From the NCBI GenBank assembly GCA_016712865.1, contig JADJQH010000008.1:620001-684000 (forward strand): a DNA stretch of 64,000 bases, written 5' to 3'. The notes beneath the pieces are model-generated. The model was not told the DNA's origin, searched no databases, and saw only the letters and a list, made by a program, of their open reading frames with translations. The DNA is from Dokdonella sp. GTDB lineage: Bacteria; Pseudomonadota; Gammaproteobacteria; Xanthomonadales; Rhodanobacteraceae. Made by a program: the position numbers and the translations under genes. This document shows positions 11,859 through 44,868 of the stretch, one piece after another (within the stretch, counting starts at the first letter, position 1; each line of letters begins with the position of its first letter).

Positions 11859-14816
11859 TTAGTCAAACCCATCCTGAAAAATGATATCCGAAGCCGGGCA
11901 ATTGCCGCCGCTTGGGCCATCGCATGGATCGCTGATGGGGAGTCCGACCATCGGAAACTCGTTGGCATCGCAACGCACCGATGGACTGCCACTGCACGAA
12001 CCATCGCCATCGGAATCCTTCAGCAGGATGTTTGTTCCGACCACATACTCAAACCCATCGACCAAGCCATCACCGTCACTGTCAACGGCCGGATACGCGT
12101 AACCGAGACGCTTGTTGCTGCCAGCTGGGAATGCAGTCGTGTAGCCCATGCCTTCAAAGGTGGTTCGTTCGTTCTCAAGAAACGTCGCGCAGTCGCCGTC
12201 CACCGATTTGCAGGCTCGATAGAACTTCTCGGCTCCTGGCGGAATGCAGGAAGGCTCGGGCGTGCAAGGCTGATAGATGTAGCCCTGAATGGTTCGCAGG
12301 TTGTAACCGGAAACTCGCGCTTGCTCGATATGCGTGGTGGTGGTCAGCAGGGTGAAATCCTGATTCGACAGCACGCAACCAGCGACACCCTGACAACCCA
12401 TCGGGAAATAATGTCCGCGGTCAACCATATGCAAAGGAATGAGATCTGGCCACGAGGCGCGTGGCTTGTATTCCGTCGTCAGCACGTAGACCGAAGCCTT
12501 GGGTACGGAAGGTGGGGTCGAAGCGGAAGGAAACGTTGGATAGCCGGGAACCGTCGCGCCTTGCGAGGTGTAGCCGCCTGCGGCAAACAAAGCGGAATGA
12601 GCGAACTGAGGTGACGTAGTATCGAGATAGTCCTTGCTGGTGCTGCCATACAGTCGGAACAGCGGCGTCACCCGATTCTTGATGACGCTGCCTGCCACCC
12701 AGCCAAGCACATTCTGTATGGCTGAATTGGCGTCGGGCCGTCCATAGCCCAGCTTCGGGTCCCAGGGAATCGACGACTGTGCCTGAAAAGTCGTGTTGAT
12801 GAGCACGGTACGCATTCCCCATGGCTGGCCGACGGGCGGAACCGGAACGCTTGGCGGCACCAGGGGATTGACCGAACGCAGGATACCCATCACGCCGGAA
12901 ATCAGCGGTGCGGACATCGAGGTTCCCGTGCACGAGCCGACACCGTCGCTCGGTGTGGTGGCAAACGAATCCCCACAACCGATGACCGTGTTCCAGTCCT
13001 TGCCTGGGTACATGCTGGAGACGATGGACTTGGCTCCAGAGACCACTTCCTGTTTCGGCAAGCTGGGTGGGCGCGACCAATTGGATCCGCATTCTCTATT
13101 GTCCCCGTATGGACAGTTCGCATAGTTCCCTGGCGATTCGTCCCAGAACGTGATGGTGTCGTCGTAGCCCCCAACCGCGACCACCCGAGGATCAGCAGCA
13201 GGAAATTGCAATCGAATCCGCCAGTTGCCCGAAGCCCCTACCAGCACAACCCCGCGCGAGTCGGCGTAGGTCATGGCCAGACACCACACGTTCGATGGAT
13301 GCGTGGCGCAATAGTCAGGCGGATCCAACGTCGCGGCCCCCAGACTCATGTTGACTATTTGCACCCCGGAATCGGCCAGCCAAGTAATGCCTTCTGCCAC
13401 ACTAGGAAAAGTAATGTTCGTAATAACGACGCCATTCCCGTCACAAAAACCAGCCGCAATCCGCGCCATGGCTACACCGCAGTGCTTACAGGTGCCTTTG
13501 AAACCCAAGCCACTGCTGACGTTGGATCCAACCAGACCAGATACATGTGTTCCGTGTCCGGCGAAGGTCACAGGGACGCCGGGCAATCCCGACGGATTGC
13601 AGCTTGGATCAGTGATCGACTCGGGCTCTTGCTCATCGACGTTGTAATCCGTTGTCGAGGTACCGCCCACATCCAGGGAAGCGGCGGGAATGAAGTTGCC
13701 ACCGATGTACTGCCCGCTCGCTGAAAACTGCCGCAATGCAGAATGATTGATGTACAGGCCGGTGTCGGTAATTCCAACCAAGGCGTAACCCGTCGCGCGA
13801 AACCACGCAGCCTCCAGGTTGAGCGTGCTCCATTCATAGTCATTGCCCAACGGGCCTAGAGGAATGTCGCCGTACACGGCGAAGCTGGATAGTTCAGTGG
13901 ATGAAAAATCCACGGCCGGAGAAACATACGCCGCCTCGATCGCCGGATCCGTCCTGAGCGAATGCAAAGCAAGCTCGACATCGATGTCGCCGGGATAGCG
14001 GATAAGCAGGTAGCGTTCCAGTTTCGCCCGAGCCGAATCTGGATGCTGATCGAGCCAAGTCTTGAGCTCGGGGTGTGCGCGCCTTGCCAGCAGAAACGCA
14101 GCCCCTTGCGGCCCCACATCGCGGAACGCAGCCAGTGGTGGATCCCCGCCAGCCGCGCCATCCACCCAAAACACGACATCTTCGGGTGTCGGTGTACCGG
14201 GCTGTCCGGAAAGCAGAGCCTCCACCAAATACGATGTGTCCTGCGCGCGCAGGTCTTGGGAGATGGGCGCCAGTATCAATGCCGCGCAAAAACTTCCTAA
14301 CCCGAGCAAGGCCCGCTGCCGACGGGCAACCAGGCCGACCAGGCCGCCGATCAAAAGCAGACCAGCAACCAGGCCGAACGAGGGCAGTGCATTCGGCGAA
14401 GGTGCGCCACTGACCGTAAAGGTGAAGTTCGCCAGGGTCTCGAACACAGGTTCCGGCACCAGAGTTTCGTAAAACCGTTCCACATGGAGTGTGTACTCCC
14501 CTCCAGGGAATGTTCCAACATCGAAGACGCCGGTGGATATCGGGTTCTGGCAGAACAGAGGATCGTCAAAATGCGTTGTTTCGAGCAACATGTGAATGGA
14601 ATTTCCCGTCTGAGTAATGGTCGGCGGGGCTGCGGAAATCCCGTCGCATTCTCCATATCGAATACTGACCGAAATCATTTCGCCAGCTACCGGGTTGGCA
14701 GGTACCAAGACCGGCGGATCAATAAACGCGAATGCGTTTGATGGGCCGATCAAACCAGCACTCATGCCGACAATCAGAGACAGGTAAAACAACCATCCGC
14801 GCTGCTTGCTCGCCAT
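11859..14816 (-). CDS. Secreted S8 (subtilisin-type) serine protease
   Basis: The 985-aa product (ATG 14816, RBS ggggaga) has a signal peptide (FYLSLIVGMSAGLI..AFA), a beta-rich domain to about residue 140, a hydrophobic helix with a following RRQR (ALPSFGLVAGLLLIGG), and then an S8 catalytic domain. Catalytic Asp351 is in VGITDTG, His421 in AGHGTHVSG, oxyanion Asn531 in GASGN and Ser633 in GTSMSAP. Many Cys residues suggest disulfides. Near the end lies a DSDGDGLVDGFE calcium-binding-type repeat, then the tail IIFQDGFD. The internal LPSxG-hydrophobic-RR segment resembles a C-terminal sorting domain but sits in the N-terminal third, suggesting fusion of two proteins. It is codirectional with lpxA and lpxB, between direct repeats. 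Substrate unknown. Confidence 0.9.
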   Translation of the reverse strand: MASKQRGWLFYLSLIVGMSAGLIGPSNAFAFIDPPVLVPANPVAGEMISVSIRYGECDGISAAPPTITQTGNSIHMLLETTHFDDPLFCQNPISTGVFDVGTFPGGEYTLHVERFYETLVPEPVFETLANFTFTVSGAPSPNALPSFGLVAGLLLIGGLVGLVARRQRALLGLGSFCAALILAPISQDLRAQDTSYLVEALLSGQPGTPTPEDVVFWVDGAAGGDPPLAAFRDVGPQGAAFLLARRAHPELKTWLDQHPDSARAKLERYLLIRYPGDIDVELALHSLRTDPAIEAAYVSPAVDFSSTELSSFAVYGDIPLGPLGNDYEWSTLNLEAAWFRATGYALVGITDTGLYINHSALRQFSASGQYIGGNFIPAASLDVGGTSTTDYNVDEQEPESITDPSCNPSGLPGVPVTFAGHGTHVSGLVGSNVSSGLGFKGTCKHCGVAMARIAAGFCDGNGVVITNITFPSVAEGITWLADSGVQIVNMSLGAATLDPPDYCATHPSNVWCLAMTYADSRGVVLVGASGNWRIRLQFPAADPRVVAVGGYDDTITFWDESPGNYANCPYGDNRECGSNWSRPPSLPKQEVVSGAKSIVSSMYPGKDWNTVIGCGDSFATTPSDGVGSCTGTSMSAPLISGVMGILRSVNPLVPPSVPVPPVGQPWGMRTVLINTTFQAQSSIPWDPKLGYGRPDANSAIQNVLGWVAGSVIKNRVTPLFRLYGSTSKDYLDTTSPQFAHSALFAAGGYTSQGATVPGYPTFPSASTPPSVPKASVYVLTTEYKPRASWPDLIPLHMVDRGHYFPMGCQGVAGCVLSNQDFTLLTTTTHIEQARVSGYNLRTIQGYIYQPCTPEPSCIPPGAEKFYRACKSVDGDCATFLENERTTFEGMGYTTAFPAGSNKRLGYAYPAVDSDGDGLVDGFEYVVGTNILLKDSDGDGSCSGSPSVRCDANEFPMVGLPISDPCDGPSGGNCPASDIIFQDGFD

Positions 14817-15097
14817 CGCAATTCTCCCCGGGTCTGGCATTGCTTCGATCGCTTGCTCTACTCAAGCACACTCAGCTGATGCAAAAGGATACCGCCGACC
14901 CATTGAGATTCTGTTCCAAGTATCGCAACGCTTCATTGTGGGCGCCATGCGATTGCCCGATTCATCGGCGACCCTGTGCAGAACTTGCCCTCAAATGCGG
15001 GGAAAGTGGTTAACAAGTTGCCCGAGAACTACCGGAACCATCCATCGGTGAGAGGATGGGGAGGTCGAGATTAGGATTGGGGACTGGGGCATGGGAC
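14817..15097. promoter_or_regulatory. Upstream region of the S8 protease gene
   Basis: About 280 bp with no coding capacity I can support. It should carry the promoter of the protease gene on the minus strand because the preceding lpxA ends before it, but I cannot point to a convincing -35/-10 pair. Confidence 0.3.
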
Positions 15098-37084: not shown

Positions 37085-37144
37085 ATGGACAGGCTGGCGC
37101 CCTTCGTGGCGCGTTTCGTGCATCGTGATTACAGCATCAGGTGA
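37085..37144 (+). CDS. Possible 19-codon leader peptide coupled to the cytochrome gene
   Basis: ATG at 37085 follows aaggaattcaggc, a better RBS than any before the next gene. It encodes MDRLAPFVARFVHRDYSIR and stops with a TGA that overlaps the GTG start of the cytochrome gene (GTGA). This suggests translational coupling. Whether the peptide has its own role is unknown. Confidence 0.4.
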   Translation: MDRLAPFVARFVHRDYSIR

Positions 37145-39051
37145 ATGCATTGTTCGGGAAAACCGCTTCTTCCGTGAAGTTCGCAACGAGGCTGGCTGCA
37201 ATGCTGGCTTGCCTTGTCCTGTCGAACGCAGCCTGGGCCATCGACTTCACCCCGCACGGCACGCAACCAGGCCTGGCTTGGGGCATGGAAGAGCCGATGG
37301 CCTGTTCGTCCTGCCATCGTGGTTTTTCCGGCAACGATCCAAACTTCATGCCGCACAGCACCTGGGGCGGAAGCATGATGGCCAATGCCATGCGAGACCC
37401 CTTGTTCTGGGCGGCACTGGATATTGCCAACAAGGATTATCCGGGCGTTGGTGATTTCTGCCTGCGTTGCCATACACCTCCGGGCTGGCTGGCGGGGCGC
37501 GTGGTCAAGGCCATTGGAGGAGGTTCCACCGGACCGGGTGGCGCCAGCGGATGCCAGCTCAATGGCGACTACGATGACAATGATGGCAAGAGCAACGATT
37601 ACGCAGGAGTGACCTGCCATTTCTGCCACCGCATGATGCCGACCGGGCCGGCTGGACAGCCGGGAATGATCGGCAATGCCAACATCTGGATTGATGACTC
37701 CTCTACGTGCACCAATCCCTCTGGAGACACCTTTGGTGGACCGTGCCGGCGCGGACCGTATGGCTACACCAGCGGGTTTCTCGAACCACCTCACGGCTGG
37801 GTCGCGTCTCCCTACCATCAGGATTCCAAGTTGTGCGGAACCTGTCACGACGTGACCACCCCCGATACGGACGAGGGACCGCTGAAGACCCTGGTGCTGG
37901 AAGGCGGAGTGGCAACCACGCGACCCATGCCGCTGGAGCGCACCTATTCCGAGTGGAACAACAGCCTGTTCTCCGAAACCATATTCCGCGATGGCATGGG
38001 CGAAGGTCCGGACCTGGTGCCTGCCATTGCCAAGGCCCAGCAGTGTCAGAACTGCCACATGCGCAGCAGCGACGATCCGGAGGCCAAGGCCTGCAACCAG
38101 AATCCGGACGGGTCACGAACGGGCAATCTCCCCGTCCATGAATTTGCCGGTGCCAACACCTGGATCCCTTCCATCATCAAGACCGAATACGCCAATGGCG
38201 TGACCGGTTTTGACCGCGAAGCCGATTTCGATCGCACCATTGCCAGTGCCCGCGCCATGTTGGAGTCCAGCGCTTCAGTCGAGACATCAATCCTTGCCTA
38301 CAGTCCGCCAACTGCCGGCAGTGCCGGCTCCATCAGCGTGCGAGTCAAGGTCACGAATCTGAGTGGTCACAAGTTGCCGACCGGTTACGCCGAAGGTCGG
38401 CGCATGTGGCTGAACGTCAAGGCCCTCAGTGCAACCGATGCCGTGGTTGCCGAAAGCGCCGCCTATGACGGCACGACCGGCGTCCTGACCGAGGACGCGC
38501 AAGCCAAGGTATACGAGGTTCTGCAAGGCATCTGGACGTCGGGTCCGCCTGCCGAATGCAAGATCGAGGAAGCAGGCAAGAAGCAGTTCCACTTCGTACT
38601 CAACAATTGCGTACGCAAGGACAACCGCATTCCGCCGCTGGGTTTCCATCCGGCAGCCGATGGTGATCCCAATGGCGATGAGATTCGACCGGTGGCGTAC
38701 ACATATCCCGAGGTTTCGCCCGGCTCCGGCGTGCTCGTCAACTACGATTCAGCCGACTACACCTTCGTGTTGCCGGCTGGTACCGCGCGGCCGATAAAGA
38801 TCGAGGCCGGGTTGAAATTCCAGATTGCCAGCAAGGACTACATCGAGTTCCTCAAGGATGAATCCGCTGAAGCACCTGCGGTTCCTGCGGAGAACACCTT
38901 GTGCACGGGCGGTCCGGGTCGGCCCTTCAACATCGGTCCGCAGTCGCTTTCCCGGGCGGACTACCTGTTCCAGTTGTGGAACAACCCTGCTTACGGAAAA
39001 TCGCCGCCGGAAACGGCGGGCAATGTCGCCACCGTATCGACCCCAAATTGA
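37141..39051 (+). CDS. Exported five-heme c-type cytochrome
   Basis: The 636-aa protein has a signal peptide (AAMLACLVLSNAAWA) and five CxxCH heme-binding motifs: CSSCH, CLRCH, CHFCH, CGTCH and CQNCH, all within the N-terminal ~320 residues. The rest includes a beta-rich part with VKVTNLSGHKLPTGYAEGRR. Spare His and Met residues between motifs may be distal ligands. It should act in periplasmic electron transfer; the partner is unknown. A GTG start is used since the frame is closed just upstream by TGA. It heads a tight plus-strand cluster, 9 nt before the first lipoprotein gene, so electrons from or to the amine-oxidase-like proteins are a reasonable guess. Confidence 0.85.
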   Translation: MNALFGKTASSVKFATRLAAMLACLVLSNAAWAIDFTPHGTQPGLAWGMEEPMACSSCHRGFSGNDPNFMPHSTWGGSMMANAMRDPLFWAALDIANKDYPGVGDFCLRCHTPPGWLAGRVVKAIGGGSTGPGGASGCQLNGDYDDNDGKSNDYAGVTCHFCHRMMPTGPAGQPGMIGNANIWIDDSSTCTNPSGDTFGGPCRRGPYGYTSGFLEPPHGWVASPYHQDSKLCGTCHDVTTPDTDEGPLKTLVLEGGVATTRPMPLERTYSEWNNSLFSETIFRDGMGEGPDLVPAIAKAQQCQNCHMRSSDDPEAKACNQNPDGSRTGNLPVHEFAGANTWIPSIIKTEYANGVTGFDREADFDRTIASARAMLESSASVETSILAYSPPTAGSAGSISVRVKVTNLSGHKLPTGYAEGRRMWLNVKALSATDAVVAESAAYDGTTGVLTEDAQAKVYEVLQGIWTSGPPAECKIEEAGKKQFHFVLNNCVRKDNRIPPLGFHPAADGDPNGDEIRPVAYTYPEVSPGSGVLVNYDSADYTFVLPAGTARPIKIEAGLKFQIASKDYIEFLKDESAEAPAVPAENTLCTGGPGRPFNIGPQSLSRADYLFQLWNNPAYGKSPPETAGNVATVSTPN

Positions 39052-39060
39052 TCAACAGCC

Positions 39061-39675
39061 ATGTCTGAATCGAATCGTTCTCCAGCTTCCCTTTTCCGCG
39101 CGTGCTACCTGCTTGCCCTGAGCCTGGGGCTTGCTGCTTGCGGCAGCCAGGCGACCAGGAACGATATTGCTTCCGATGGCATCGATCACAGCGGCAGGAT
39201 GCGCGGCTATGTGGAGTCAAGCCGGGTTACGGATTTCTGTCCTGACCAGTCCGAACGTCGTGACGACGAACGTTGTGTGGTCACTCGCGGATGGGACTAC
39301 GCGCGTGGACAAAACATCGTCCGCACCTTCGATCCCAACGGGAATCTCATCGCCACCCAGTATCCGCCTGGCGCTGATCTCAGCCTGACGGAGCCCGAGC
39401 GGCAACGCGCGGCCGCGCTGGTGAAGTTGGATCCGAGGACGCGTGACATCGTGAACAAGCCGGACGTGATGCTCTGGCATGGTGGTTTTGCCATGCGTGA
39501 ACCTGGGGACCCCTTTTGCGACAGGGGTTCGCGCTGCATTCGCGTGATCGCCGCCGTGAACAACGGAGACGATGTGATCCTTCATTCCGTGGTCGATCTG
39601 ATGAGCGATCGCGTTGTTTATCCGGACTACGTGCCTTCCGGACGGAAGGCGGCCCATTCATCGTTGGAGCATTGA
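39061..39675 (+). CDS. Lipoprotein resembling copper amine oxidase N-terminal domain, paralog 1
   Basis: The 204-aa product has a lipobox (LGLAACGS). The body shares with the gene at 40904 the pattern GWDYxRG, a P/N-G-N segment, an acidic helix (LTEPERQRAAALVKLDPRTRDIV), GSRC[IV][RH]VI and VVDLMSDRVV. The helix plus final strand resembles the N2/N3 domains of copper amine oxidases, where a xDLxxxxVV strand ends the domain. Those domains do not bind copper. The gene lies 3 nt before the amine-oxidase-like gene. Family assignment is by eye. Confidence 0.6.
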   Translation: MSESNRSPASLFRACYLLALSLGLAACGSQATRNDIASDGIDHSGRMRGYVESSRVTDFCPDQSERRDDERCVVTRGWDYARGQNIVRTFDPNGNLIATQYPPGADLSLTEPERQRAAALVKLDPRTRDIVNKPDVMLWHGGFAMREPGDPFCDRGSRCIRVIAAVNNGDDVILHSVVDLMSDRVVYPDYVPSGRKAAHSSLEH

Positions 39676-39678
39676 GCC

Positions 39679-40884
39679 ATGTTCATCCAGAGATTCATTC
39701 CTGTTATCGGGCTGGCGATGTTTGCCTCCTCGGCACTTGTGCACGCCGGATCACCCACCTGCGTTGCGCCGGAAACCAAACTGAGCTGGCCTGCCGTCAA
39801 CCCGGTTTGGGAAATGTGCTGGTTGGCACCGGATGACAGCGTGGGGCCCGCAGGCTCCGGCATGGAATTGCGCAACGTGTACTGGAACGGGCAACTGGTG
39901 TTGCGCCGCGCGCATGCACCGATGCTCTTCGCGGAATACAAGGATGGCAATGGCGGAGACTGCTATCGCGACTGGAAGGACCAGCCGACTTCGACCCTGG
40001 CCGCCAACGCCGTGCAGAACCAGTTGGGAGATATCCCGCCGGGTGGCAATGCAGCAATCACTAGTTGCGATCGCTCGAATGATGCGACCGCCTCCTATGG
40101 CTATTGCCCCTATCTATTGCCGATTCCAGCGGGCTACTCCTGCACCCAGGGCGTCGCCATCGAGAACATGGGCGACCACGTGCGCCTGACGGCGCAGTAC
40201 ATCGCTGATTGGTACATGTACTCATCGCGCATGGAATTCTATGTCGATGGCCGCATGAAGCCGACCTTCGGCTTTGGCAACCGCAACGGCACCTTCAATG
40301 GCGTGACACATTGGCACCACAACTACTGGCGATTCGAGTTCGACATGGATGGGCTCGGCAACAACGTGGTCAGCATCGACAATTCCGATCAGGCCGTCGA
40401 ATTCACCGACTTGCGCAATGTCGGTGGTGGTCCCGGCGGCGGGCCACGGACTTGGTCGGTACGCAATCCCTCAAGCGGGAATGGCTATCGCATGGTTCCT
40501 GGTGCCAGTGACTACGAGTACGCGACCAACGAATCCGGTCGCGGATTCCACACGCTCGATTTCATGGCGACGCGAACGCACGCCAACGAGTACGGTGACA
40601 ACCCGAACTACGACTTATTCGATTGCGAAATGCATGAAGAGAACATCGTCAATGGTGAAAACATCGCCAACACCAACCAGGCCATCTACTACCGGGTTGC
40701 CGTTCGTGACACCACAGCGAACAGCTGGCCACCGGGCTGCAGCGGTGGAAATTGTCAGGCGCAGAATTCCATGGTCTGCAAGTCGGTTGGTCCGACTTTG
40801 TACCCATTCGGCCCTTGGGCTGATCTGATTTTTGCGGATGGTTTTGACGTGCTTGTGCCTGGTGCCCGGTTGCAGATCTACTGA
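39679..40884 (+). CDS. Secreted copper-amine-oxidase-like protein, paralog 1
   Basis: The 401-aa protein has a signal peptide (LAMFASSALVHAG). Landmarks follow the order of the copper amine oxidase catalytic domain: GMELRNVYWNGQLVLRRAHAP (compare GLVLxDIxFxGRPVxYRLS), TAQYIADWYMYSSRM (compare the topaquinone-bearing FIATxANYEYI), THWHHNYWRFEFDMDG (compare HQH...RxDxxVDG) and NIVNGENIANTNQAIYYRV. His211 and His213 match the first two copper ligands. Tyr181 sits at the cofactor position but lacks the N-Y-[DE] setting, and the third His appears to be Asp344 (AVRDTTANSWP). Catalysis is therefore doubtful. The end carries LIFADGFD. Assignment is by eye. Confidence 0.62.
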   Translation: MFIQRFIPVIGLAMFASSALVHAGSPTCVAPETKLSWPAVNPVWEMCWLAPDDSVGPAGSGMELRNVYWNGQLVLRRAHAPMLFAEYKDGNGGDCYRDWKDQPTSTLAANAVQNQLGDIPPGGNAAITSCDRSNDATASYGYCPYLLPIPAGYSCTQGVAIENMGDHVRLTAQYIADWYMYSSRMEFYVDGRMKPTFGFGNRNGTFNGVTHWHHNYWRFEFDMDGLGNNVVSIDNSDQAVEFTDLRNVGGGPGGGPRTWSVRNPSSGNGYRMVPGASDYEYATNESGRGFHTLDFMATRTHANEYGDNPNYDLFDCEMHEENIVNGENIANTNQAIYYRVAVRDTTANSWPPGCSGGNCQAQNSMVCKSVGPTLYPFGPWADLIFADGFDVLVPGARLQIY

Positions 40885-40903
40885 TCCTGGCGTGGAAACG
40901 ACC

Positions 40904-41557
40904 ATGAAATACCTGCGCCCCGGATACCTGCTCACGATCGTTGCCATATTGATTCCGGCCTTCATCGCTTCTTGCCAGCCGAGAACCCGCACGGAAGGAG
41001 TCCGTGACGCTGACAGTGCGATGACTCCACTCACGGCATCGGCCGGAGTAGGCGGCAACAAGGTGAGAATCGACCGCAATTCGGCAGACATCAAGCTGCC
41101 GGATTACCAACCGGTGCGGCGGTATGGCGATGTATTCACCGAGAATGGCATCAACCGGAAAGTGTTCGTTGAGTATGGTTGGGACTATCGACGTGGTGTC
41201 GTCGTGGAGTCGGTTTTTGACGAGTCCGGCAATTCGCTGAGGCGCACGGACAAGCCTGGGTACACCTTGAATTTTGCAGATCGTGAGCTCGAGTTGGCGA
41301 TCGCATTGGCCAGGGAAGAGCCCAGTCTTCACGAATTGCTGTCCGCTCCCGACTTGAATTTCTATGCCGGATTCGTTCTGCGCAACGAGAACGATGCTGG
41401 TTGCAAAGCGGGTTCCAGATGCGTGCACGTGATCGTATCCCGTGGCGATGGCCAACAGCATGTGGCCCACGCCATTGTTGATTTGATGACGCGGCGAGTC
41501 GTGCACGCCGCACTTGACCCGGATCGGAAGCCCGATCCGGTAGCTGACAAAAACTGA
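40904..41557 (+). CDS. Lipoprotein resembling copper amine oxidase N-terminal domain, paralog 2
   Basis: The 217-aa product (ATG 40904) has a lipobox (PAFIASCQP). It is a divergent paralog of the protein at 39061: GWDYRRGVVVESVFDESGN, LNFADRELELAIALAREEPS, GSRCVHVIVSRGDG and HAIVDLMTRRVVHA align in order. It precedes its own amine-oxidase-like partner by 10 nt, so the gene pair as a unit has been duplicated. Function is unknown; it may anchor or support the partner at the membrane. Confidence 0.6.
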   Translation: MKYLRPGYLLTIVAILIPAFIASCQPRTRTEGVRDADSAMTPLTASAGVGGNKVRIDRNSADIKLPDYQPVRRYGDVFTENGINRKVFVEYGWDYRRGVVVESVFDESGNSLRRTDKPGYTLNFADRELELAIALAREEPSLHELLSAPDLNFYAGFVLRNENDAGCKAGSRCVHVIVSRGDGQQHVAHAIVDLMTRRVVHAALDPDRKPDPVADKN

Positions 41558-41567
41558 GGACAAGCCG

Positions 41568-42746
41568 ATGCAGATGATCACGCGCAGACTGGTGGCAGGC
41601 TTGGCCCTGCTTGGCATGGGAATCAGCGGATCCGCATTCGCTGCGGCCGCAGATTGCGGTCTGTGGGGCGGTAACTTGCTGCAATGGCCCGCAGCCAATC
41701 CGGTCTGGGAGATGTGCTGGGTACAACCGAGCCAGAGCGTGGCCGCGGATGGCTCCGGCCTGGAATTGCGGGATGTGCACTACAAGGGAATTCTGGTCGC
41801 CAAGCGCCTGCATGCTCCGATCCTGTTTGCCGAGTATCGCAACAGCGGTACCTGTTATCGCGACTGGAAAGATTCCGATGCGCGTTTTGTCGCATCGGTC
41901 CCGGTACGCAATCAATTGGGTGTACCTTCGCCCTACATTGCAACCACGGTATGCGACGTTTCGCAGGACGCAACTGCGGCCTACGGAAGCTGCCCGTTTA
42001 CCGGTGCGCCAGGAACCAACTTCGTCCTGGCTGATTGCATTGGTGCGCCAGGCGGAGTCGCAATCGAGGACATGGGAGATCATGTGGTCCTGACCACCCA
42101 GTACTCGGCAGCCTGGTACCAGTACACGGGTCGTTACGCGTTCTGGGCCAATGGCGACATACAACCGGAATTCGGTTTTGGCAACAGAGATGGAACCAAC
42201 AACAGCCTCACCCACTGGCACCACAACTACTGGCGCTTTGATTTCGACATCGATGGCTCCGGCAACAACGAAATTCTTTCCAATGGGGTATCGCAGTCAA
42301 CGGAGTTTTCCGGATTGCGCAGCCTGACCGGCGGACCGGGTGGCGGGCCGACGTATTGGGACGTGATGAGCACCAAGGGAGATTTCGGCTACCGCATTGT
42401 TTCCGGATCGGGTGACTACAATCCGCCGAATCAGTCCGGGCGCAATTTTCATTCGGTTGACGTGATCGGCAGCCGTTTCATCAACAACGAATACGCCGAC
42501 CGTAGCGACAACAACCTGGGTGACTGCACCATGACGGCAACGAATATTGCCAACAGCCAGTCGATTGCAGATACGGATGTCGTGTTCTGGTATCGCGCCA
42601 GCGTACGGGATGCCAACGGCAACAACTGGCCGCCCGGTTGCAGCGGAGCTTCCTGCGAGCCGCAAAATTCGATGGTGTGCAAACAGGTCGGTCCAACCAT
42701 TACCCAAGTCGGCGACTGGCCAATTTTCCGAAACGGTTTTGAGTAA
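41568..42746 (+). CDS. Secreted copper-amine-oxidase-like protein, paralog 2
   Basis: The 392-aa protein (signal ALLGMGISGSAFAA) parallels the protein at 39679 throughout: WPAANPVWEMCW, GLELRDVHYKGILVAKRLHAP, CYRDWKD, THWHHNYWRFDFDIDG and PPGCSGASCEPQNSMVCKQVGP. His216 and His218 keep the HxH pair; Tyr186 is at the cofactor position without N-Y-[DE]; the third ligand position reads SVRDANGNNWP, again Asp. Conserved cysteines imply disulfides. It ends IFRNGFE. The same losses in both copies argue for a shared, altered role rather than decay. Confidence 0.62.
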   Translation: MQMITRRLVAGLALLGMGISGSAFAAAADCGLWGGNLLQWPAANPVWEMCWVQPSQSVAADGSGLELRDVHYKGILVAKRLHAPILFAEYRNSGTCYRDWKDSDARFVASVPVRNQLGVPSPYIATTVCDVSQDATAAYGSCPFTGAPGTNFVLADCIGAPGGVAIEDMGDHVVLTTQYSAAWYQYTGRYAFWANGDIQPEFGFGNRDGTNNSLTHWHHNYWRFDFDIDGSGNNEILSNGVSQSTEFSGLRSLTGGPGGGPTYWDVMSTKGDFGYRIVSGSGDYNPPNQSGRNFHSVDVIGSRFINNEYADRSDNNLGDCTMTATNIANSQSIADTDVVFWYRASVRDANGNNWPPGCSGASCEPQNSMVCKQVGPTITQVGDWPIFRNGFE

Positions 42747-42807
42747 TCGAGGGTTTCCGTGGTAGCGAAACGCCACGCAACCAGGATTTTGACTTGGAGT
42801 AAGCGAA

Positions 42808-44868
42808 ATGCAGCGTGATGCAGGATTTCAGAGAGTCATGTTGGCGAGCGTGCTGGCTTTCGGGCTTGCACCCGCATGGGTGATGGCTGAGTCAAGCACG
42901 ACCGCGGCAGAGCTCAGCCAGGATTCGCTGTGGGCCGTATGGGGTGGCGAAGTGGGCATGCGATGGAATCGCGAGCTGCTTGCCGACATGGGTTTGAGCA
43001 TCACCAAGACGAATGGGAAGCTCAAAGATTTGAGCTGGCGGCAGCATGAACGGTTCAACGTTCGCCAGTCCGGCAGTCTCGAATTCCGCGTGCACAACAA
43101 CAACCTGCAAAGCTTCGTGGGTGGTTCCGTGCAGGCGCGCGGTGGCTATGTCTTGGCGCTGAACGATGGAACACAGATCAACCTGTCGGATTTCCGCCTG
43201 CGCACACGGGCGGATGACCCCCTCATCCTGGATCTGGTGGGTGCAGATGGAATCGCCTGGTTTTATGTCGATCGCCTGATGTACGAGCTGGTCAATGACA
43301 ACCGCACGCTTGCCGTACAGACGATGGACTTGCGCATCAGTCCGGCTCTTGCCAGTCGCCTGGGCTTCCCTGAGCGCGCAAACTGGGCGATTGCCGACAT
43401 GATGTTGCTGAGTCAGGTGCTTCGCCAGGGTGTTGGAGCCACACCCAAGGGCGGCAGCGTGTTTGACTGGACAGGGACCCAGGTGCCTGGGCAACCCGCG
43501 GGAACGGTCTACCAGGCCGATCTGTTCATGCAGAACTTCAGCGTCAGCTACAGTCGCTGCAATGGCTGCACGGGAAGTTCGACCACGGGCCAGGTGGTGT
43601 TCACGCCGAGCTCCACCCTGAGGAACAATGTCAACAATGGCTCTGCCCAGGCAACGGTTGCGGGTGATCCATTGGGAACCAGCTCTGTGCTGTGGACCGC
43701 CGACATTCCCTGGTACACCAAGTTCTCCGGCACCTTCGCGCCCTATAGCAATGACCAACACCCATACCTGATCTGGAACCTGTATCGATACAACGCCGAT
43801 GGCAGCATCGACCAAATCGGGCGCTCTGGCGTCAAGCACGCGTTCCTGACCACCAATGTCGGTTGCGCCTCTGGCCATGGCACCAATTCGCATGTGCTCG
43901 GTCGAGCTTGTTCCGACACCTATGGAACCGGCAACAACGACAGCAACAACGATCTCGGTCCGCGTTCGGAAATCATTCCTGCCGACAACATCTGGGGTCG
44001 TTGCGGTTCCATCTACGACACCAATTGCGATGGCAATTCGAACAGCTCCGGCAACGGTCAGTATTCACAGCGCCTGATCACCATCGAGTCCCAAATCGAT
44101 CCCGCCTTGAATGCGGGAGCGTCGTATCGCTTCGAATCGTGGTATCTGGCGCGCGAAGACGTGAACATCTACAACTCCATGGCCACGCGTGGTGTTTCAC
44201 CTTCGCGCTCGGGTTCAACCTGGATGCCAGGGGCCGGAGAAGCTTTCCGCCTCGGCTCGGCCATCGATCGCTGGGCTGAAACCACACCGCCGGGTGGTGC
44301 CAAAGCCATTCAGGAACTGGCCAGCAGCGAAGGTCACGTCAAGGCTGCGGTCAAGGTGTTTGATCTTGGCGGCGGCCAGTACCGCTACGACTACGTGATC
44401 ATGAACTTTGATTTTGCGCGCGCTGCGACGGAGTGCCTTGATCCGAATCCTGCTCCTCCGTGCGAGCCAGGTTATGTAAAGGTCGTGCACAATTTCGGCC
44501 TTGATCGTTTTCGCATCAACACGGCCCCAGGAATTTCCATCAGCAACCTGGTTTTCAGCGATGGAGATCTGAATGCCGCGAATGACTGGACAGGCACGGT
44601 TGCGCCGACCGCGGTCAACTGGGTTGCGCCGGCGGATCCGTCGCCGCCGGTCGGCACCCCAGCCGTGACCAATCCACTTAATTGGGGAACGATGTTCCGG
44701 TTCTCGTTCACTGCCAATGCTGCGCCGACAGCCAGCGGCGTGCATTTGCATGTTGCCCAAGCCGGTTCCGCGGGTCAGGCCGACAACCTTACGACAACAC
44801 TGCTTGGTCCAGGGGCCGGCAACGACGTGATTTTTGTGGACGGCTTTGAAACCTTAGCCAGGCCGTGA
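42808..44868 (+). CDS. Secreted protein of unknown family, 686 aa
   Basis: It has a signal peptide (SVLAFGLAPAWVMAES) and is rich in Asn, Gly and aromatic residues, as expected for a beta-rich extracellular protein. Residues 1-220 include SFVGGSVQARGGYVLALNDG and IAWFYVDRLMYELVND. The middle has GNGQYSQRLITIESQIDPAL and SWYLAREDVNIYNSMATRG. The C-terminal part has NLVFSDGDLNAANDWTG and ends DVIFVDGFETLARP, the tail also seen on neighbouring proteins. It closes the cytochrome/amine-oxidase-like cluster and is followed by a terminator. I do not recognise the family. Confidence 0.75.
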   Translation: MQRDAGFQRVMLASVLAFGLAPAWVMAESSTTAAELSQDSLWAVWGGEVGMRWNRELLADMGLSITKTNGKLKDLSWRQHERFNVRQSGSLEFRVHNNNLQSFVGGSVQARGGYVLALNDGTQINLSDFRLRTRADDPLILDLVGADGIAWFYVDRLMYELVNDNRTLAVQTMDLRISPALASRLGFPERANWAIADMMLLSQVLRQGVGATPKGGSVFDWTGTQVPGQPAGTVYQADLFMQNFSVSYSRCNGCTGSSTTGQVVFTPSSTLRNNVNNGSAQATVAGDPLGTSSVLWTADIPWYTKFSGTFAPYSNDQHPYLIWNLYRYNADGSIDQIGRSGVKHAFLTTNVGCASGHGTNSHVLGRACSDTYGTGNNDSNNDLGPRSEIIPADNIWGRCGSIYDTNCDGNSNSSGNGQYSQRLITIESQIDPALNAGASYRFESWYLAREDVNIYNSMATRGVSPSRSGSTWMPGAGEAFRLGSAIDRWAETTPPGGAKAIQELASSEGHVKAAVKVFDLGGGQYRYDYVIMNFDFARAATECLDPNPAPPCEPGYVKVVHNFGLDRFRINTAPGISISNLVFSDGDLNAANDWTGTVAPTAVNWVAPADPSPPVGTPAVTNPLNWGTMFRFSFTANAAPTASGVHLHVAQAGSAGQADNLTTTLLGPGAGNDVIFVDGFETLARP

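Follow-up and report, generated by a model that had tools for sequence, protein, structure and literature searches.

A copper-amine-oxidase fold split between a lipoprotein and a secreted protein and encoded with a pentaheme cytochrome in Dokdonella

Quinoprotein amine dehydrogenases such as methylamine dehydrogenase and quinohemoprotein amine dehydrogenase have folds other than that of the copper amine oxidases (CuAOs) and carry the cofactors tryptophan tryptophylquinone (TTQ) and cysteine tryptophylquinone (CTQ). CuAOs are described in PMC3382800 as self-processing quinoenzymes in which the modified tyrosine lies in a conserved N-Y-D/E context, within the consensus T-x-x-N-Y-D/E, and the three copper-binding histidines are strictly conserved. 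Here we report on six genes in a 64,000-nucleotide stretch of a Dokdonella sp. genome (contig JADJQH010000008.1, positions 620,001 to 684,000; hereafter the window, whose numbering we use). All six open reading frames lie on the plus strand at 37141-44868 and encode, in order, a cytochrome (Cyt), two pairs of a lipoprotein and a secreted protein (LipA-AoxA and LipB-AoxB) and P686. Our computational analysis establishes the fold of the Lip and Aox proteins, its division between two chains, an invariant, altered active site and a conserved cassette. Sequences and structural models together suggest that Cyt-Lip-Aox is an amine-oxidase-derived electron-transfer enzyme of an undescribed kind. Among the open-access literature matches listed, no title or abstract beginning described a split or cytochrome-linked CuAO; more may be in print.

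A CuAO fold divided between Lip and Aox

For the predicted structure of AoxB (predicted local distance difference test score (pLDDT) 83.0), all 50 Foldseek matches listed were CuAOs. The AlphaFold2 model of LipA (pLDDT 84.8) matched CuAOs throughout Foldseek ranks 1-27, over domains D2 and D3 (best E value 1.4e-4, probability 1.00). A first-pass annotation, made from the sequence alone, had read the secreted proteins as CuAO catalytic domains and the lipoproteins as the N2/N3 domains. Both readings hold: for the one protein modelled of each kind (AoxB and LipA), neither a structure lacking the amine oxidase beta-sandwich nor an unrelated fold was obtained.

Profile-profile comparison aligned Aox with the catalytic part of four canonical CuAOs (E value 1.5e-6, probability 90%) and, using hhalign, Lip with their N-terminal parts (7e-5, 63%). 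Lip also matched separate D2/D3-like proteins of another gammaproteobacterium, genome G470 (8e-6, 84%), and, in a set of only eight sequences, two such proteins at 1e-7 and 1.4e-6. A value of 5.9e-30 for Aox was set aside as inflated, because the comparison set held a near relative, the unsplit protein of genome G569; the value from canonical enzymes only is preferred. The Lip profile did not match the N-terminal part of the G569 protein (E value 0.14), so this fusion alone does not show that Lip corresponds to its N-terminal half.

The Pfam family Cu_amine_oxid (PF01179) was matched by 25 of 40 Aox family members at E <= 0.1 (best 6.3e-7). In the window, AoxB scored 15.6 bits against a gathering score of 27, and AoxA gave no PF01179 row at E <= 1. 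Across the eight contigs of the same genome, PF01179 had no match at E <= 0.001, and the one hit of AoxB at E <= 1, besides AoxB itself, was AoxA. LipA and LipB fell into no Pfam family, and no family was shared by over 3 of the 40 Lip rows; the Lip profile found nothing relevant in the Protein Data Bank (PDB).

Domains D2, D3 and D4 are not on one chain in the window or in the cassette loci. We regard it as almost certain that Lip and Aox represent a CuAO fold cut in two, with the D2/D3 part in the lipoprotein and the catalytic D4 part in the secreted protein. Both are members of the CuAO fold superfamily. We do not class Aox itself as a copper amine oxidase, since the three-histidine site, the topaquinone (TPQ) consensus and the single chain are absent and the Pfam score lies under the cut-off. 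The lipobox cysteine is missing from seven aligned Lip rows, those labelled Marinicella and their near kin.

Altered active site, conserved cassette and cytochrome

Residues were counted over the 45 distinct Aox sequences, among 82 matches, that are 300 residues or longer (the window's two included); no two of these reach 97% identity. Eight positions are invariant in all 45 (AoxB numbering): Y90, R98, D99, W183, Y184, Y186, H216 and H218. By alignment to the CuAO AGAO, W183 corresponds to Asn381, Y184 to TPQ382, Y186 to Tyr384, H216 and H218 to His431 and His433, and D348 to His592; Y90 was assigned to Tyr284 by spacing. The TPQ consensus is thus replaced by W-Y-x-Y, and two of the three copper histidines are kept, in 45 of 45 sequences. 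The third position is Asp in 44, the remaining row having a gap in the broken L028 gene. The candidate for the catalytic-base Asp depends on the alignment, being D99 (Asp in 45 of 45) in one and D102 (42 Asp, 3 Asn) in another. Roles of the matching AGAO and HPAO-1 residues are described in PMC3382800 and PMC9491219, the second of which covers those of the pocket.

Active-site positions are among the invariant Aox columns, and both window copies keep them (in AoxA as Y87, D98, W178, Y179, Y181, H211, H213 and D344). These residues agree with what the first-pass annotation had described for the two copies, namely an HWH pair at 211/213 and 216/218, a tyrosine at the TPQ position (here Y179 and Y184), loss of the N-Y-[DE] context and apparent replacement of the third histidine by aspartate (here D344 and D348). 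The last two features extend to the whole family.

The cassette recurs beyond the window. Across 34 further loci (L003-L036), all on other contigs, Lip was always the family member closest to Aox on its upstream side, and Cyt preceded Lip in 31, in line with the linkage to a c-type cytochrome proposed earlier. Of the three loci that lack Cyt, two (L008 and L016) start at a contig end and the third (L025) has 2.7 kb upstream. Two Lip-Aox pairs were found in five of the 34 loci (L003-L006 and L018). In the window, the two pairs are tandem duplicates, as had been suggested (AoxA and AoxB are 49-51% identical, LipA and LipB 25%). Ratios of nonsynonymous to synonymous substitution (dN/dS) of 0.05-0.20 for the six genes, measured against the close relative L003, indicate maintained proteins.

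Within the order, the Aox profile matched 40 of 398 genomes, spread over 13 of 98 genera; within the class, it matched 5 of 369. Both counts include the Dokdonella genome, and three of the five (G470, G569 and G748) hold distant relatives. The closest locus, from a gammaproteobacterial bin, is 95% identical, and the next two, from Dokdonella, 81-82%. Records bearing Aox are labelled Dokdonella, Tahibacter, Pseudofulvimonas and Marinicella, and the rest are mostly Lysobacterales-type bins; among other bins, one is labelled Xanthomonas sp., one Alcanivoracaceae and several to class or phylum only. In one Dokdonella bin (L028:8986-10147), the Aox gene runs across two reading frames, being either broken or misread in sequencing, with Cyt, Lip and P686 relatives matched around it. 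The Aox alignment (A1) holds the window's two sequences and 38 of 44 rows; the other six are two copies and two fragments of the window's own genes (L001/L002) and the two L028 pieces. The Lip alignment (A2) holds the window's two and 38 of 42 rows; the other four are three copies of the window's own genes and one row truncated at the edge of a contig. Alignments A7 and A8 hold the window's sequence with 28 of 31 and 40 of 42 rows, respectively.

Cyt carries CXXCH motifs at residues 55, 107, 159, 232 and 302. Five such motifs are present in 40 of 41 aligned Cyt rows, the window protein included, and four in the other. Pfam assigned it to Cytochrome_C7 (29.4 bits, cut-off 24.8). The match to the NCBIfam model ExtKL was weak (21.3 bits, where the cut-off is 250), as was that of the Cyt profile to cytochrome c552 in the PDB (5ze8, E value 0.034), which covered profile positions 367-432 only. 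At E <= 1e-20, 16 of 274 class genomes hold relatives of Cyt, again counting the Dokdonella genome. By eye, no constant partner enzyme was noted in nine stretches at distant Cyt relatives and three at P686 relatives, a non-systematic look in which two proteins were scanned with Pfam. A second five-heme Cyt relative, with a dockerin-like segment, lies on contig C2 of the same genome (L128:7700-12563), adjoining an open frame that combines cytochrome b, 2Fe-2S and FAD/NAD reductase domains.

Table 1. Coordinates of the cassette genes and of sites within them
Feature	Position	Strand	Description
Cyt	37141-39051	+	First cassette gene; 636 residues, putative GTG start; secreted five-heme c-type cytochrome
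LipA	39061-39675	+	Lipoprotein, lipobox LAAC, Cys 27; CuAO D2/D3 fold in model
AoxA	39679-40884	+	Secreted CuAO-catalytic-domain-like protein, copy A, on the basis of 51% identity to AoxB and key residues
LipB	40904-41557	+	Lipoprotein, lipobox IASC, Cys 24, copy B; putatively D2/D3-like, by homology with LipA; start taken as ATG at 40904 (TTG at 40832 in the open-reading-frame finder)
AoxB	41568-42746	+	Secreted CuAO-catalytic-domain-like protein, copy B
AoxB W183-Y184-x-Y186	42114-42125	+	TPQ-position Tyr; Trp for Asn, variable residue for Asp/Glu
AoxB H216-W-H218	42213-42221	+	First two copper ligand positions; invariant in 45 of 45
AoxB D348	42609-42611	+	Asp at third copper His position
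P686	42808-44868	+	Secreted 686-residue protein without Pfam family
C-terminal motif, AoxA	40828-40848		
C-terminal motif, AoxB	42723-42743		
C-terminal motif, P686	before 44868		At P686 end

Relatives, neighbours and origin of the split

Unsplit relatives with a W-Y-R-Y context are encoded in genome G569, in Variovorax sp. WDL1 (WP_162487223.1, annotated 'hypothetical protein') and in Nonomuraea gerenzanensis, where the record has no gene annotated at that place. They resemble Aox in the W-Y-x-Y context and in a similar H.HH.YWR.DFD motif, but form one chain and keep a histidine at the third copper position. At the Variovorax locus, no cytochrome was found among ten annotated features in 13.6 kb, a gene table that may be incomplete. 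There, on a plasmid (L140:6016-9797), the unsplit gene adjoins one annotated as encoding a galactose oxidase-like domain-containing protein. A 35-row tree, which included 21 of the 40 A1 rows and omitted the Microvirga protein, fused_G470e and the G748 protein, placed Aox and the unsplit W-Y-R-Y proteins on one side of a branch supported at 100/100 and the canonical CuAOs and G470 split proteins on the other; it was rooted at the midpoint, and the program warned that long branches meet.

The sets in G470 resemble Lip-Aox in that a D2/D3-like protein adjoins catalytic-domain proteins (L069, L076-L084). Unlike Aox, their catalytic proteins are of two kinds, one with HxH and the third histidine and one without HxH, and they fall outside the group of Aox and the W-Y-R-Y proteins. 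The two kinds possibly form a heterodimer of an active and an inactive copy. G470 has 11 PF01179 match rows, with a canonical CuAO alongside several split sets (L069, L072, L076-L085). Because the G470 proteins lie outside the Aox group in the tree, their split was probably an event separate from that of Lip-Aox. We infer that the tryptophan came first and that the split and the His-to-Asp change followed in the Lysobacterales line, and that splitting occurred on two occasions; fusion after an ancient split is a possible alternative origin.

The six genes are separated by 9, 3, 19, 10 and 61 bp, in order from Cyt to P686, and promoter and terminator scans yielded nothing exceeding shuffled sequence. 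The 686-residue neighbour, which the first-pass annotation had listed without assigning a type, is present as an open reading frame; Pfam has no family that covers P686 and recognised only extra domains in individual relatives, and the P686 profile matched only antibody light chains in the PDB. The P686 family occurs in 4 of 274 class genomes at E <= 1e-5, including the Dokdonella genome. Some clusters hold two or three P686 relatives, often adjoining a Cyt relative (L007, L011, L012, L014 and L030).

An [IL]F..GF[ED]-like motif closes AoxA, AoxB and P686, in AoxA 11 residues before the end, and is also found on unrelated secreted proteins. The broader pattern [IVLM]F..[GADSNTMH]F[ED] lies within the last 16 residues in 57 of 2527 distinct open frames and elsewhere in 10, a set biased towards loci fetched for Aox and one in which the window's AoxA motif falls just outside the 16-residue limit. 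The motif was also seen at loci L037-L066 and L094-L101, and it follows an added Ig-like domain in some relatives. In the Dokdonella genome, F..GFE-stop occurs eight times and the reversed pattern never; the eight proteins include AoxB and two with metalloprotease-like HExGH motifs, as judged by eye. On the minus strand of the window, a 1000-residue open frame (11862-14861) ends in ..DIIFQDGFD, the same motif. The motif has the look of a tag for sorting or secretion that has not been described.

Proposed working and comparison with known systems

We tentatively favour, as a possibility still short of an even chance, that Cyt-Lip-Aox is a CuAO-derived, three-component envelope oxidoreductase working as a dehydrogenase with electrons passed to the cytochrome. 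Lip would dock on Aox as D2/D3 sits on D4, and in most lineages its lipid would anchor the complex to the membrane. Aox would bind a mononuclear metal, probably copper, through two histidines and one aspartate beside the conserved tyrosine, and would oxidize a substrate, most likely an amine, with that tyrosine as redox cofactor, either as TPQ or in another tyrosine-derived form. Electrons would then pass to the pentaheme cytochrome and on to respiration, in place of the plain formation of H2O2 by an oxidase. We propose Cyt as the acceptor because the metal site is altered and the pentaheme gene lies upstream in nearly all loci. That the complex is specifically a two-chain quinoprotein with a 2-His-1-Asp site, feeding electrons from amines to the cytochrome and thereby allowing respiration of amines at the cell surface, appears doubtful.

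Several points weigh against the dehydrogenase proposal. CuAOs were absent from single-sequence PDB searches, which gave AoxA three chance matches to ribosomal proteins and AoxB none, and the Aox profile ranked antibody chains first (E value 0.021), with the E. coli CuAO at 0.18. Because this last match is not significant alone, the case for the CuAO fold rests on the models and the profile-profile comparison. The catalytic aspartate is ambiguous, falling at D99 in one alignment, at D102 in another and clearly at neither in a third. One alignment also sets D348 opposite the residue after the third histidine of the G569 protein, where three others pair D348 with the histidine; D348 is favoured as the ligand position because its strand is ungapped in two alignments, D348 itself is invariant and residue 347 is variable. 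At L025, no Cyt match was found in the 2.7 kb of contig upstream. TPQ may not form at all, because the asparagine before the tyrosine, which when changed to alanine in HPAO-1 (Asn404Ala) leaves 5-10% TPQ formation (PMC3382800), is a tryptophan in Aox. Both the activity of Aox and its docking with Lip and with Cyt are predictions.

The strongest rival takes up the matter of the cofactor: the 2-His-1-Asp site and an unmodified tyrosine may form a mononuclear copper or iron oxidoreductase to which the cytochrome supplies electrons or from which it removes them. Such an enzyme would fit the near-universal aspartate ligand (44 of 45, with a gap in the other), the W-Y-x-Y context in all 45 sequences and the importance of the asparagine for TPQ formation in HPAO-1 (PMC3382800). 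However, the pocket pair Tyr 90 and Tyr 186 and the invariant Asp 99 are kept and would not obviously be needed without a quinone. The unsplit W-Y-R-Y proteins, moreover, retain all three histidines, so the tryptophan is not by itself a sign that the classical copper site has been lost. We consider this rival possible, if somewhat unlikely. Decidedly doubtful, in our view, is a CuAO fold that is no longer catalytic and partners the cytochrome and P686 in a binding, structural or metal-handling role. Non-catalytic-looking copies do occur in the superfamily, since one kind of G470 split domain lacks HxH, but the active-site columns of Aox are invariant and kept in both window copies, whose dN/dS values are 0.08 (AoxA) and 0.07 (AoxB).

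The conserved tyrosine, the two histidines and the aspartate would also suit an ordinary, if split, TPQ amine oxidase that reduces O2, with the cytochrome a neighbour without direct contact; with the third histidine and N-Y-D/E absent and Cyt upstream in 31 of 34 loci, this is improbable. Least probable, and to be thought very unlikely, is a lysyl-oxidase-like enzyme that modifies cell-surface proteins such as P686. At 20 of 34 loci, P686 relatives lie within the flanking sequence fetched, which reached up to 9 kb, and AoxA, AoxB and P686 share their C-terminal motif, but the flanks of the other 14 loci, some on short contigs and including all five labelled Marinicella, contain none, and unrelated secreted proteins bear the motif as well.

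A maintained family that alters both the histidine site and the tyrosine context, splits the chain and travels with a multiheme cytochrome constitutes a natural test of what TPQ formation and O2 use need. Compared with CuAOs (PF01179; AGAO, ECAO, HPAO-1 and AOC3), Lip and Aox share the catalytic fold and the D2/D3 fold, the TPQ tyrosine, AGAO Tyr284 and Tyr384 and the first two copper histidine positions (AGAO numbers by alignment and spacing). They differ in forming two chains, one of them a lipoprotein except in the seven rows without the lipobox cysteine, in the aspartate at the third histidine position and in W-Y-x-Y, as well as in the sub-threshold Pfam scores of the window proteins and in the presence of a cytochrome in the cassette. 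Cyt resembles the pentaheme c552/ExtKL proteins in its five CXXCH motifs and in a weakly matching segment that follows the hemes, but, compared by sequence alone, it scores far under the curated ExtKL cut-off. For c552 and a related small pentaheme group, structural homology or a suggested kinship to an archaeal cytochrome nanowire is described in PMC11976967. With the quinoprotein amine dehydrogenases, the likeness lies in the proposed working only, that is, oxidation of an amine with electrons passing towards a cytochrome c, and no homology is claimed. Cyt-Lip-Aox may represent a new kind of amine dehydrogenase.

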